From contig NZ_QQAK01000014.1 in NCBI RefSeq assembly GCF_003384035.1, forward strand, positions 62,001 to 126,000: 64,000 nt of DNA. Reading direction: 5' to 3'. The DNA comes from Sporosarcina sp. BI001-red (GTDB taxonomy: Bacteria > Bacillota > Bacilli > Bacillales_A > Planococcaceae). The notes under the pieces are model-generated. The model saw only the letters and a program-made list of their open reading frames with translations, was not told the origin of the DNA and did no database searches. Below, piece after piece: positions 188 through 62,521 of this stretch; the first letter of the stretch is position 1, and every line of letters begins with the position of its first letter. The position numbers and the translations under genes were made by a program.

Positions 188-466
188 GAAACGAGCGGGT
201 TCAAGTCGGGATTGAGCGGGTTGGACGGTGAAACGAGCGGGTTCAAGTCAGGATTGAGCGGGTTGGACGGTGAAACGAGCGGGTTCGTGGCCGAATTGAG
301 CGGGTTGGACGGTGAAACGAGCGGGTTCACGTCGGGATTGAGCGGGTTGGACGGTGAAACGAGCGGGTTCAAGTCTGGATTGAGCGGGTTGCTCAGTGAA
401 ACGAGCGGGTTCAAGTCGGAATTGAGCGGGTTGGACGGTGAAACGAGCGGGTTCAAGTCGGAATTG
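188..466. repeat. 42-bp GC-rich tandem repeat array (about 6.6 copies)
   Basis: Units start at 188, 230, 272, 314, 356, 398 and 440, an exact 42-bp period. Each unit is two 21-bp half-units, GAAACGAGCGGGTTCAAGTCG followed by one beginning GGATTGAGCGGGTT. The shared core is GAGCGGGTT. Because 42 is a multiple of three, long frames stay open on both strands, but they lack ribosome binding sites and one runs through the terminator at 501-542. I regard the array as non-coding. A related array lies at 37989-38404. Confidence 0.9.
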
Positions 467-500
467 AAGAACTTGGCCAGCGTGCTTCATCACAACGAAA

Positions 501-6032: not shown

Positions 6033-6092
6033 TTATGAGGGCTTTGCTTGGGTTATGATCACTTTCTGCGATTTATGAGCGCTCTTCAAAAG
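6033..6092. repeat. 40-bp repeat family, three degenerate half-units
   Basis: TTATGAGGGC, TTATGATCAC and TTATGAGCGC half-units at about 20-nt spacing, directly after the hemQ terminator. Short outlier of the family seen in bulk at 15118-15532. Confidence 0.75.
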
Positions 6093-7436: not shown

Positions 7437-7590
7437 TTATGATCAGTTCTTTCCTAGTTATGAGCGCTTTCCAGTGGTTATGATCACTTTCCTCCAGTTT
7501 ATGAGCGCCTCCCAGTGGTTATGATCACTTTCCTCCAGTTTATGAGCGCTTCCCAGAGACTATGATCTGTCTCCTTCTTTTATGCTGATT
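7437..7590. repeat. 40-bp repeat family, about 7 half-units
   Basis: Alternating TTATGATCA and TTATGAGCG half-units at 20-21 nt spacing occupy the middle of the 520-bp divergent gap between the NERD gene and cwlJ. The rest of this gap (7164-7436) is AT-rich; I see no gene in it. Confidence 0.85.
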
Positions 7591-13627: not shown

Positions 13628-14983
13628 ATGAAAAAAGCGTCTTTATCCAACTGGTTATTGTTTTTAGTTCCATCTATTATCGGTGTCATTTTGTTTATGA
13701 TTCCTCTGAAAATCGGAGACGGCTGGAAAGTTCCGATAGCGTTCCTAGCTGATAAACTCGCCGGGTTTATAGAACCTGCGATGCCGTTTGCTGCGATGGT
13801 GCTCATTATCGTTTCAGCGGTAGGTTCCGTTATCTTCTTGTTTATAAAAAAAGAAGAAGGCGTGAAGCCTCCTTTCGTACAAACCTTGTTCAAAGTGACA
13901 CCATTTTGGACACTGACGCGTGTGGTAGGTGCGATTTTCGCGATTATGGTCACGTTCAAACTCGGACCTGAAGCAATTTGGAGTGAAAACACGGGTGGCT
14001 TGTTACTATCACCTGATGGACTTGTTTCGTTCTTATATACCATTTTCCTATTTGCAGGATTGTTCTTGCCGTTACTTTTGAATTTTGGATTGCTCGAGTT
14101 CTTCGGTACGATGATGGTGAAAATCATGCGTCCGTTGTTCAAGCTTCCTGGTCGATCCTCCATTGACGCGTTGACGTCTTGGGTTGGAGACGGGACGATT
14201 GGTGTCCTATTAACGAGTAAGCAGTATGAAGATGGACATTATACGAAACGTGAAGCAGCTGTTATTGCCACAACGTTCTCGATCGTTTCGATTACTTTCT
14301 CGCTTGTTATTATTAAAACGGTTGGTCTCGAAGATTACTTCGTTCCGTTTTACGCAACAGTTGCGGTGGTTGGTCTTGTATTAGGACTGATCATGCCTAG
14401 AATTTATCCCCTTTCGAAGAAACCAGATGAATTCATTGACGGTACTCCCCAAACAGGAACAGAAGAAAGTCTACCTGAGGGATATAATGTCATTTCTCAC
14501 GGTATTGAAAACGCACTTGCAACTGCGGATAAAAACCGTTCGGCAGGTAAAGTTATAGGCGATGGATTCCGGAACGTTTTGGATATGTGGATTGGCGTAG
14601 CCCCAATCGTTATGGCGTTTGGTACGATTGCAACGATGCTTGCAGAGTATACGAGTCTATTCACGATTCTCGGGAAGCCATTTGTTCCATACTTGAATCT
14701 GCTACAAATTCCTGAAGCTTCTGAGGCCGGTTCGCTAATGGTTGTCGGAATTACAGATATGTTCTTGCCTGCTCTACTTGCAGACGGTATGATTTCTGAC
14801 CCGATTACCCTTTTCACAGTGGCGACCGTATCTGTCGTTCAGCTCATCTACTTGTCAGAAGTGGGCGGCTTGATTCTTGGGACGAAGATTCCCGTCAACA
14901 TCTGGGATCTAATTGTGATTTTCTTACTTCGTACGATCATCGCGCTGCCAATCGTTGCAGGCGTTGCACACTTGTTATTTTAA
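13628..14983 (+). CDS. YjiH family nucleoside-recognition-domain membrane protein
   Basis: A 451-residue polytopic protein with about ten hydrophobic segments. It belongs to the YjiH/Gate (nucleoside recognition) group, with LPGRSSIDALTSWVGDGTIG and VGITDMFLPALLADGMISDP as the recognisable conserved stretches. Transport of a small polar solute across the cytoplasmic membrane is likely; the substrate is not known. ATG 13628 follows AAGGAG. It has its own promoter and terminator. Confidence 0.85.
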   Translation: MKKASLSNWLLFLVPSIIGVILFMIPLKIGDGWKVPIAFLADKLAGFIEPAMPFAAMVLIIVSAVGSVIFLFIKKEEGVKPPFVQTLFKVTPFWTLTRVVGAIFAIMVTFKLGPEAIWSENTGGLLLSPDGLVSFLYTIFLFAGLFLPLLLNFGLLEFFGTMMVKIMRPLFKLPGRSSIDALTSWVGDGTIGVLLTSKQYEDGHYTKREAAVIATTFSIVSITFSLVIIKTVGLEDYFVPFYATVAVVGLVLGLIMPRIYPLSKKPDEFIDGTPQTGTEESLPEGYNVISHGIENALATADKNRSAGKVIGDGFRNVLDMWIGVAPIVMAFGTIATMLAEYTSLFTILGKPFVPYLNLLQIPEASEAGSLMVVGITDMFLPALLADGMISDPITLFTVATVSVVQLIYLSEVGGLILGTKIPVNIWDLIVIFLLRTIIALPIVAGVAHLLF

Positions 14984-15036: not shown

Positions 15037-15117
15037 GTTTAGGGAGTGGTTGGTTGGTCGCGAGGTTATGTAAGGTGTTGATAGAAGCTTTCTTCCGCGG
15101 GAGGTGGACGGATGGGG

Positions 15118-15532
15118 TTATGATCACTTTTCCTGAGTTTATGAGCGCTTTCCTGGAGTTATGATCACTTTCCTAGCTTTATGATCGCTTTCCTGGAGTT
15201 ATGATCACTTTTCTAGCTTTATGAGCGCTTTCCTGGGGTTATGATCACTTTCCCAGCTTTATGAGCGCTTTTCTGGAGTTATGATCACTTTCCTAGCTTT
15301 ATGAGCGCTTTCCTGGGGTTATGATTACTTTCCTAGCTTTATGAGCGCTTTCCTGGGGTTATGATCACTTTTCTAGCTTTATGAGCGCTTTCCTATTGTT
15401 ATGATCACTTTCCCAGCTTTATGAGCGCTTTCCTGGGGTTATGATCACTTTTCTAGCTTTATGAGCGCTTTCCTGGAGTTATGATCACTTTTCTAGCTTT
15501 ATGAGCACTTCCCCCATTTTATGAGCACGAGC
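15118..15532. repeat. 40-bp dimeric repeat array (about 10 dimers)
   Basis: Strict alternation of two 20-bp half-units: TTATGATCACTTTCCTAGCT and TTATGAGCGCTTTCCTGGGG. The first 15 nt of each are conserved and the last 5 vary. TGATCA and AGCGCT are both 6-bp palindromes at the same place in the half-unit. The array fills the gap between convergent genes and lies outside both terminators. It contains no open frame with a ribosome site. Confidence 0.95.
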
Positions 15533-15557
15533 TGCCGCTACTCCCTATCACTTCACG

Positions 15558-15606: not shown

Positions 15607-16551
15607 TTAAGCATTCACTTTTTCGCGAATCTTTTCTAGCATGTCTGACACCATTGCATCGAGATTGTAAGTGGATTTGAAGCCCCACTCCGTTTCTGCG
15701 ACGGATGTGTCGATAGAATTCGGCCAGCTGTCAGCGATGGATTGGCGTACTGGATCAACATCATAGCTGATTTCAAATGTTGGGATGTACTTTTGGATCG
15801 CAGCTGCCAACTCGGATGGATCGAAGCTCATTGCCGTTACGTTGAACGCATTGCGATGCTTCAAGTTAGCGGCATCGGTTTCCATCAAATCGACAATCGC
15901 TTGGAGCGCATCTGGCATGTACATCATATCCATGTACGTACCTTCTGCTATGAATGACGTATACTTGCCCTCTTCTACCGCTTTGTAGAAAATGTCGACC
16001 GCGTAATCTGTTGTACCGCCGCCTGGTTGAGCAACGTATGAAATGAGTCCAGGGAATCGAACCCCACGTGTATCAACGCCAAACTTTTGATAATAATAAT
16101 CACATAACAATTCACCAGACACTTTGTTCACTCCATACATTGTCGTCGGGCGTTGGAATGTATCTTGTGGTGTGTTGTCTTTTGGTGTGGAAGGTCCGAA
16201 TGAGCCGATTGAGCTTGGTGTGAAGAATTGAAGGTCCAGTTCACGTGCTGTCTCCAGCGCATTTACGAGTCCTCCCATATTCAAATTCCATGCGAGCATC
16301 GGGTTCTCCTCCGCTTTTGCGGAAAGTAATGCTGCCATGTGCATGAGTGTGTCTGCACCGAACTCTTTTGCAAGCCCTGTCATTTTTGCTCCATCCGTTA
16401 CGTCAAGGATTGCGAATGGTCCATCCATTTCTGTTTGTGGTTCGCGAATGTCTGTTGCTAATACATTTTCCGTACCATATTCAGCGCGTAGTTTGGTAAT
16501 CAACTCTGAACCGATTTGACCAAGTGCGCCGGTCACCATAATTTTCTTCAT
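15607..16551 (-). CDS. Epimerase-type L-threonine 3-dehydrogenase
   Basis: A 314-residue short-chain dehydrogenase of the NAD-dependent epimerase group. It has the Rossmann motif GALGQIG (8-14) and the catalytic Tyr139/Lys143 in [13 protein letters not shown]. The SSIGSFGP and [12 protein letters not shown] stretches are those of UDP-galactose-epimerase-like threonine dehydrogenases, which oxidise L-threonine to 2-amino-3-ketobutyrate. The enzyme for the next step (kbl) lies at 17664-18854 on the same strand, which supports the substrate. It is unrelated to the zinc MDR enzyme Tdh of E. coli. Confidence 0.88.
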
Positions 16552-20855: not shown

Positions 20856-21314
20856 TTATGAGCTTTTTCGTAGTGTTATGATCACTTTTTGTGATTTATG
20901 AGCGGTTTCTCTGCGTTATGATCACTTTCCTTGATTTATGAGCGTTTTCACTGCGTTATGATCACTTTCCGTGATTTATGAGCGGTTTCCCAGTGTTATG
21001 ATCACTTTCCGTGATTTATGAGCGGTTTCCCAGTGTTATGATCACTTTCCGGGATTTATGAGCGGTTTCTCTGCGTTATGATCACTTTCCGTGATTTATG
21101 AGCGGTTTCCCAGTGTTATGATCACTTCCCAGGATTTATGAGCGGTTTCTCTGCGTTATGATCACTTTCCATGGTTTATGAGCGGTTTCTCTGCGTTATG
21201 ATCACTTTCCGGGATTTATGAGCGGTTTCTCTGCGTTATGATCACTTTCCATGATTTATGAGCGGTTTCTCTGCGTTATGATCACTTCCCAGGATTTATG
21301 TGGCACATTCCCCA
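20856..21314. repeat. 40-bp dimeric repeat array (about 11 dimers)
   Basis: TTATGATCACTTTCCGTGAT alternates with TTATGAGCGGTTTCTCTGCG for about 455 bp, in strict 20-nt register. Compared with 15118-15532, the second half-unit carries GCGG instead of GCGC, so its palindrome is lost, and the 5-nt tails differ. It fills the 670-bp gap between two - strand genes; no gene is seen in that gap. Confidence 0.95.
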
Positions 21315-21389
21315 CCTAGCTAAAGAAACTGCTTCATTGGTCACGTGATTGGGATGTATTAAATTGGGACACTTCCGCGGGCGTGGGTT

Positions 21390-27469: not shown

Positions 27470-27660
27470 TGGAATTCGCCACTCCTATCGACTTGAAATT
27501 TCGTACTAGTGTACCACACCCACTCTATGAAACCACTTTTTTGTAGTTTTGGGATGACAATCCGATGGCATATTCCTCATCTTGTTCCCACTGAAGCATA
27601 CTCACGTCTTTCCCCCACTCAAACTGGTGACTCATCAAAAGCATGAAAAGACGCTGCTCC

Positions 27661-27880
27661 TAATCATAGACTATGGAAATTGATCATAAAACTGCGAATC
27701 TGATCATAAATCATGGATTCTGCTCATAAAACTTGAAATCTGATCATAAACCATGAAAATCCGCTCATAACTCTCAGAATGTGATCATAAATCTGGATTT
27801 CCGCTCATAAATCATAAAATGTGATCATAACTCCACGATTTCGCTCATAACTCTTAGAGTCTAGATATAACCTTTAGTGA
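27661..27880. repeat. 40-bp repeat family in reverse orientation (11 half-units)
   Basis: Half-units TGATCATAAA and CGCTCATAA lie every 20 nt from 27661, with a 1-nt shift near 27760. They are the reverse complement of the TTATGATCA/TTATGAGCG half-units elsewhere, and are more diverged. The array sits in the 520-bp divergent gap between the antiporter and PseG-like genes; I see no gene there. Confidence 0.88.
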
Positions 27881-37988: not shown

Positions 37989-38404
37989 GGAATGGGCGGG
38001 TTCGGGTTCGGAACGGGCGGGTTCACCTCGGAAACGGGCGGGTTCGGGTGCGGAACGAGCGGGTTCACCTCGGAAACGGGCGGGTTCGGGCGCGGAACGG
38101 GCGGGTTCACCTCGGAAACGGGCGGGTTCGGGCGCGGAACGGGCGGGTTCACCTCGGAAACGGGCGGGTTCGGGTGCGGAACGGGCGGGTTCACCTCCGG
38201 AACGAGCGGGTTCGGGCGCGGAACGGGCGGGTTCACCTCGGAAACGGGCGGGTTCGGGTGCGGAACGGGCGGGTTCACCTCCGGAACGAGCGGGTTCAGG
38301 TGCGGAACGGGCGGGTTCACCTCGGAAACGAGCGGGTTCACCTCGGGAACGGGCGGGTTCACCTCCGGAACGAGCGGGTTCACTTCGGAAACAGTTGGGT
38401 TCAG
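37989..38404. repeat. 42-bp GC-rich repeat array (about 10 dimers)
   Basis: Half-units GGAACGGGCGGGTTCACCTC and GAAACGGGCGGGTTCGGGTG alternate with a 42-bp dimer period. Towards the 3' end the alternation fades. The core G(A/G)GCGGGTT is shared with 188-466. Four frames remain open through the array, but none has a ribosome site and it lies between two facing terminators, so it is not transcribed as part of a gene. Confidence 0.92.
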
Positions 38405-58260: not shown

Positions 58261-58620
58261 TTATGAGCAGTTTGCTGAGATTATGATCACGTCTCTTACG
58301 TTATGATCACTTTTCGTGATTTATGAGCGCTTTCCCAGAGTTATGATCACTTTTTGTGATTTATGAGCACTTTCCCAGGGTTATGATCACTTTTCGTGAT
58401 TTATGAGCAACTTCCCAGAGTTATGATCACTTTTTGTGATTTATGAGCACTACCCCAGAGTTATGATCACTTTTCATGATTTATGAGCACTTTCCCAGAG
58501 TTATGATCACTTTTCGTGATTTATGAGCACTTTCTTAGGGTTATGATCACTTTTCATGATTTATGAGCGCCTTCCCAGGGTTATGATCACTTTTCGTGAT
58601 TTATGAGCAACTTCCTAAGT
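58261..58620. repeat. 40-bp dimeric repeat array (9 dimers)
   Basis: Exactly 18 half-units of 20 nt, mainly TTATGATCACTTTTCGTGAT and TTATGAGCACTTTCCCAGAG. Here the second half-unit carries GCAC or GCGC. It fills most of the 617-bp gap between the aldehyde dehydrogenase start and the MFS stop; I see no gene in the rest. Confidence 0.95.
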
Positions 58621-58712
58621 AATGTTAGTTGGTCGCGTGATTGTTTTGGGTGAACACTTGGGATTCCTTCCGCGGGATGGATATAACCATGCTAATTGAT
58701 TTGATTCCAAAC

Positions 58713-62338: not shown

Positions 62339-62396
62339 TTATGAGCTCTTTTCATGGTTTATGATCACTTTCCCTGGTTTATGAGCACGATCCCGC
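62339..62396. repeat. 40-bp repeat family, three half-units
   Basis: TTATGAGCTC, TTATGATCAC and TTATGAGCAC at about 20-nt spacing between convergent genes. Confidence 0.75.
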
Positions 62397-62521
62397 AACT
62401 TGCCGCTATCCAACAGTGACAGCACCCCGCTGCAAAGAATAGCTATGCACTTAGTGCCCTTTACCAATCAAATCTCTTCCGCTCTTCATTACTTGTATAC
62501 GATTACTCCAATGCTAAAGTA

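Follow-up and report, generated by a model that had tools for sequence, protein, structure and literature searches.

In the window, by which the whole analysed stretch of 64,000 nt is meant, a tandem array of short direct repeats separates the genes at 13628-14983 (+) and 15607-16551 (-), with hairpin-plus-T sequences on either side (recognized by eye), which raises the question of what such arrays are and what they could be for. A sequence-only reading had described the repeat at seven sites of the window, and considered it to be scattered over the genome and located outside genes. Indeed, all seven sites carry units with a TTATGA core that are 20-21 bp apart (Table 1), and the window contains 57 exact TTATGAKCRC cores as opposed to 0.66 expected (100 shuffles; the largest shuffle gave 3). 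Genome-wide, 462 exact cores were counted compared to 23 for the reversed control, so the repeat is not limited to the window, and the window arrays sit in gaps that separate longer ORFs. The genes flanking them are ordinary, and par or rep genes were not found adjoining the arrays.

Table 1. Repeat arrays and flank modules in the window
Feature	Position	Strand	Units	Steps	Setting
Array	6033..6092	+	3	20 bp	convergent gap
Array	7437..7579	+	7	20/21 bp	gap between divergent genes
Array	15118..15538	+	21	20 bp	convergent gap
Array	20856..21300	+	22	20 bp	between two minus-strand genes
Array	27650..27850	-	10, degenerate		gap between divergent genes
Array	58261..58620	+	18	20 bp	between two minus-strand genes
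Array	62339..62398	+	3		convergent gap
Flank module TTGGTCGCG...CTTCCGCGGG	15054..15101	+			upstream of 15118 array
Flank module TTGGTCGCG...CTTCCGCGGG	21337..21381	+			downstream of 20856 array
Flank module TTGGTCGCG...CTTCCGCGGG	58629..58676	+			downstream of 58261 array

Repeat motif, spacing and copy number

The sequence common to different arrays is TTATGA[TG]C[AG], a core of about 9 bp that alternates with spacers of about 11-12 bp. This core is conserved in the 8-unit arrays of G000, G198 and G010 (184 units), whereas their spacers are variable (identity 0.42-0.52, compared to 0.98 for the core), and the same TATGAKCR motif is present in 90 units of G028, a lineage with 21-bp steps. The proposed composition of 15 conserved and 5 variable nucleotides applies inside single homogenized arrays, but between arrays only the core of about 9 bp is shared. 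Likewise, of the two palindromes thought to occupy the same place, TGATCA of the T half-unit recurs, whereas AGCGCT is not kept between arrays (GCGG at 20856, mostly GCAC at 58261); palindromes were hence rejected as the core of the repeat, the conserved part being TATGA[T/G]C[A/G].

Coding repeats were likewise considered and rejected, as the TGA of TTATGA hits every frame within three units of a 20-bp array, and as TATGA is followed by T or G in 245 of the 246 units with an exact core, where coding would also permit A and C. None of 106 arrays overlaps a predicted gene once ORFs made mostly of array are removed. Half of the 14 arrays in G028 overlap ORF calls of at least 100 aa, which the 21-bp step may have opened.

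The unit step is 20 bp, or 21 bp in other lineages, and in G028 every step in 14 arrays is 21 bp despite differing spacers. Eight is the commonest unit number, found, after trimming, in 20/53 arrays of G198 (some of which occupy a common gap), 10/44 of G000 and 2/15 of G010 (untrimmed 18/50, 8/47 and 2/15), the counts covering the fetched stretches of each genome. In G028, 12/14 untrimmed arrays have seven units when the end units may carry one mismatch, while trimming to exact-core ends leaves eight arrays with seven units, five with six and one with four. One of two arrays in G338, which belongs to another family, has exactly eight units at 20 bp. The commonest array thus consists of eight motifs with diverged spacers, and not of the 40-bp dimer that had been taken as the basic form. 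The alternation of half-units is strict in long arrays, but in 8-unit arrays it is a tendency alone, with 105/161 neighbors differing compared to a shuffled mean of 84.4 (23 loci; 2/5000 shuffles reach the observed value).

The substitutions between orthologous sites follow the same division into core and spacer. Over the 32 units of four orthologous site pairs, a single change is seen in TATGA and C taken together, and the T preceding TATGA changed once, whereas each spacer column changed 5-15 times. K changed eight times, every time between T and G and with no transitions to C or A, and R changed six times, every time between A and G. A wider set of seven pairs agrees with this profile but is partly non-independent, as one pair is non-orthologous and four share one array, hence the recount on four. 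T/G and A/G positions each present a common major-groove contact, and this substitution profile is the strongest evidence for sequence-specific recognition.

Genomic positions and orientation

In the clade formed by G198, G000 and G010, arrays are stable in position. An array is present in the orthologous G198 gap for 37/38 comparable G000 arrays, in the same orientation in 37/37 cases, the sole G000 array lacking a G198 counterpart being that at C9:89379; the G198 stretches were mostly picked for holding arrays, and of five picked by interpolated position, three have an array and two do not. A preliminary comparison had matched 35/47 G000 arrays in G198, the remaining 12 regions being outside the compared stretches, and had found a counterpart in all 12 compared regions of G010. 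The 6033 array has counterparts of 8 units in G198 and 23 units in G010. Array positions in G028 mostly differ from clade-A positions, and in shared gaps the orientation is opposite.

A bias in replichore orientation had been suggested as a check, and it is present in the clade. G198 consists of one contig of 3,203,634 bases with a sign change of GC skew near 1.5 Mb, before which, with one array counted per gap and orientation, 15 are on the minus and 8 on the plus strand, and after which 19 are on the plus and 2 on the minus strand. When arrays are counted in this way, and those not flanked by genes on both sides within the stretch are dropped, 76/95 are antisense to the leading strand (G198 34/44, G000 30/38, G010 12/13), the leading strand being defined by a turning point at 1.50 Mb in G198 and by the GC skew of the stretch elsewhere, with assignment by hand for three weak-skew stretches (the window, L123 and L124). 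Antisense arrays account for 40/41 in convergent gaps, the sole exception at 1.4897 Mb being at the skew turning point, as well as 6/6 in lagging-strand tandem, 29/42 in leading-strand tandem and 1/6 in divergent gaps, and orientation thus depends on gene context too. The 27650..27850 array has the same sense as the leading strand, which is the minority orientation. Lineages beyond the clade show a weak bias by the skew of the stretch, with 10/14 antisense arrays in G028 and 0/1 in G045, 14/22 in other genera and Sporosarcina lineages, 3/6 outside the family (G338 and G612), and 8/13 in convergent gaps of lineages outside the clade; strong replication polarity is therefore a property of the clade. 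Two sequence classes as the cause of orientation were rejected, since the TTTCC/AATTC difference tracks the strand. The second base after TATGAKCR is a purine in 0.15 of units in antisense arrays compared to 0.84 in sense arrays.

The location of the arrays would also suit an RNA element, where the arrays would be transcribed by read-through or from their own promoter and the RNA motif would bind a protein or small RNA, acting as a sponge or in 3′ control. Arrays lie near the 3′ ends of genes, the 3′ end of antisense arrays being at a median of 88 bp from the next gene, and on the leading strand their spacers are rich in purines. However, the motif is found in both orientations relative to neighboring genes, the RNA fold of 32 8-unit arrays scores just below that of shuffled sequences, with little difference between the strands (mean z -1.15 and -1.35), and an Rfam comparison of the window gave a single match, a tRNA. 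Moreover, we know of no single Watson-Crick or wobble partner that would fit a T/G-only position. A hairpin-plus-T sequence separates gene from array at 43/82 convergent gene ends, a count that also speaks against an RNA element. With 19/42 leading-tandem and 3/6 lagging-tandem gene ends besides (all counted with no control run), the case for the arrays as terminators is weak. An RNA element is hence unlikely.

Neighboring genes, flanks and mobile elements

Sequences related to the flank modules recur near other arrays. Within 250 bp, TTGGTC[AG]CG (allowing one mismatch) is found upstream of 14/112 and downstream of 11/112 arrays, compared to 3.8% of random windows, and CTTCCGCGGG is found upstream of 4/112 and downstream of 6/112, compared to 0.55%. 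Between loci, spacers with the same unit number resemble one another slightly (identity 0.436 vs 0.409, sd 0.003). Among the gene clusters that adjoin arrays in eight lineages, 13 are shared by two lineages and one by three, the latter being the very common short-chain dehydrogenases, and the arrays of these lineages were not found to have a gene family of their own next to them.

Together with array positions that differ between lineages, the enriched flank modules and the resemblance of same-number spacers would suit a MITE-like non-autonomous element, whose sites would be bound by a transposase or recombinase and whose orientation bias would stem from replication-linked insertion. A locus in G198 (L076, G198:C1:2836880-2838700), where five tandem copies of a unit of about 318 bp each consist of an 8-9-unit array plus flank, would fit as well; this flank carries GCTTCGC...GCGAAGC and CCGCGGG. 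On the other hand, 37 of 38 positions are stable between two species, the motif is constrained after dispersal, and Y1_Tnp, the sole transposase family searched, has one match in G000, two in G198 and none in G010, so that the REP-like element with a transposase that had been named as a possible refutation did not emerge. Plasmids and phages gave no array match, and viral contigs gave none with the strict pattern and one match each in 34 contigs with the loose pattern. No empty site was encountered within a species. We regard a MITE-like origin as improbable.

Phylogenetic distribution

The strict dimer pattern is present in 15/61 Sporosarcina genomes and in 9/200 family genomes (2/19 genera), with 0 matches for the reversed control in either set, and its 12 stretches in the named genome collection are all from Sporosarcina. 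The 15118 array has 60 BLAST matches in G010, which belongs, like the window, to Sporosarcina. A loose pattern of three TCATA at 19-21 bp occurs in 51/61 Sporosarcina genomes, with at least 10 matches in 34 of them and a maximum of 2 per genome for the reversed control, and in 107/200 family genomes, where it is indicative only, as the reversed control is also frequent in some genera. The stricter GMTCATA pattern occurs in 76/261 genomes and 9/19 genera of the order, the listed genomes all belonging to one family, with many matches of the reversed control in G106, G176 and G213. Outside the family, 6/359 sampled Bacilli genomes match, two of which have arrays (G338 with 108 and G612 with 26 matches) and four a single match. 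Many related genomes have few or no arrays, hence the array function would be dispensable or replaceable.

A similar patchwork is seen at the 15118 gap, of which a flanking gene is present in 43 genomes and 30 loci were compared, read by eye. An array is present at 11 loci (clade-A type in L131-L136; variants in L137, L138, L147, L153 and L155), with CATA always in the same direction as the neighboring gene, while 6 loci are bare, with 54-66 bases and one terminator-like hairpin, 3 are without the other flanking gene and 10 have remnants or other sequence. In G036 and G053 (L149 and L154 being the loci concerned), the array is replaced by another sequence, which contains long inverted repeats.

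A second array family in the window (188-467 and 37994-38381) is composed of 21-bp units around ACG[AG]GCGGGTT that form 42-bp dimers. Three consecutive cores of this family are found in 9/61 Sporosarcina genomes, G000 alone accounting for 190 matches, and the arrays examined in G000 and G198 are likewise antisense to the leading strand. Reversed controls also match apparent further arrays with 19-21-bp steps in G041, G016, G032 and G037 as well as in G106, G176 and G213, with cores of a TTGGGCG type and an ATACT type, so that the bacterial family seems to harbor additional types of array with different cores.

Long arrays and homogenization

Spacers two units apart have an identity of 0.77-0.79 in arrays of at least 13 units, compared to 0.52 in 8-unit arrays, which suggests that the long dimeric arrays arose later from the short form, by local tandem duplication of two units at a time. 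The concerted evolution that the sequence-only reading had proposed within arrays is thereby borne out. Several G000 draft contigs end in or near arrays (C3 end, C9:1072, C10:128, C14:127, C2 and C4), so assemblies may break at arrays and long arrays may be undercounted.

A neutral minisatellite, in which slippage and gene conversion would spread and homogenize repeats without function, is very unlikely: the long arrays show local homogeneity and a 40-bp higher-order repeat, and unit numbers vary between species at a single site, as such a process would predict, but homogeneous duplicated tandem units are not seen in 8-unit arrays, slippage leaves a T/G-only position at exact 20/21-bp steps amid diverging spacers unexplained, the same motif is found in nine genera of the family and in other families, and the substitution profile of the four pairs disfavors it.

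A candidate binding platform

The DNA-binding role that had been suggested for the repeat is the likeliest reading. Specifically, the arrays may be helically phased binding platforms for a putative DNA-binding protein, a proposal to which we would give an even chance of being right. In its basic form, such a platform would present about eight copies of TATGAKCR on one helix face, two turns apart, and a putative sequence-specific protein would read the motif and assemble cooperatively, giving rise to a directional nucleoprotein complex at the boundaries between transcription units. This complex could have a polar job, for example as a barrier or marker that is met head-on by leading-strand transcription and the replication fork, or could alternatively serve as a chromosome-organizing site. 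Protein assembly on DNA is suggested by the helical phase of the motif spacing, the preferred copy number, the constraint on the motif with its T/G and A/G positions and, within the clade, the conserved positions and the polarity, from which we infer binding, oligomerization and a polar job.

No account of such an element was found in a literature search, in line with the earlier remark that no named element has this form. More tentatively, and with somewhat less than an even chance, the arrays could represent an undescribed class of chromosomal sites, namely phased TATGAKCR arrays favoring 7-8 sites, where a polar protein filament would be loaded between operons at tens of places. These would have been rebuilt as lineage dialects across one Bacilli family, with two or more other families having them as well. 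Constraint on a multi-site motif that recurs at tens of shared positions, antisense in the clade, would imply an undescribed genome-wide DNA-binding system. A 160-bp array is a ready bait, for which changing K to C or A offers a built-in specificity control, and relatives with few or no arrays can be used for comparison. If the proposal is true, the arrays would be a bacterial case of short functional sites seeding satellite-like expansion.

Comparison with known systems

Several known systems share single features with the arrays. CRISPR arrays, which have cas genes and repeats of about 23-50 bp with unique spacers, do not correspond to the core of about 9 bp and spacers of about 11-12 bp described here. 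KOPS/SRS and DNA uptake sequences are similar in being short polar or dialect-forming chromosomal motifs, but they are single scattered words, whereas the arrays are multi-site, intergenic and, in the clade, mostly antisense. MIRU/VNTR loci are likewise tandem repeats that lie dispersed between genes and vary locally in copy number, yet the arrays differ by a conserved degenerate motif amid diverging spacers, a preferred number of eight and replication polarity.

REP/BIME elements consist of palindromic hairpins and depend on a RAYT transposase for their association. Like the arrays, they are dispersed and intergenic, often at gene ends, and present in tens of copies; in contrast, the arrays consist of direct units with diverged spacers and weak RNA fold, and Y1_Tnp is absent from the array-rich G010.

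Replication iterons are tandem direct sites at regular helical spacing. Both iterons and plasmid centromeres resemble the arrays in having direct sites, and the 20/21-bp steps correspond to about two helical turns. For parC/ParR and tubC/TubR, two papers describe how direct-repeat arrays can seed polar nucleoprotein helices, the parC repeats of pSK41 being 10 bp and bound as a dimer of dimers (PMC5016525, PMC4911067). In contrast to these plasmid systems, which occupy one plasmid locus beside par or rep genes, the arrays are without a specific adjoining gene family in the eight lineages compared and are distributed over tens of chromosomal gaps.
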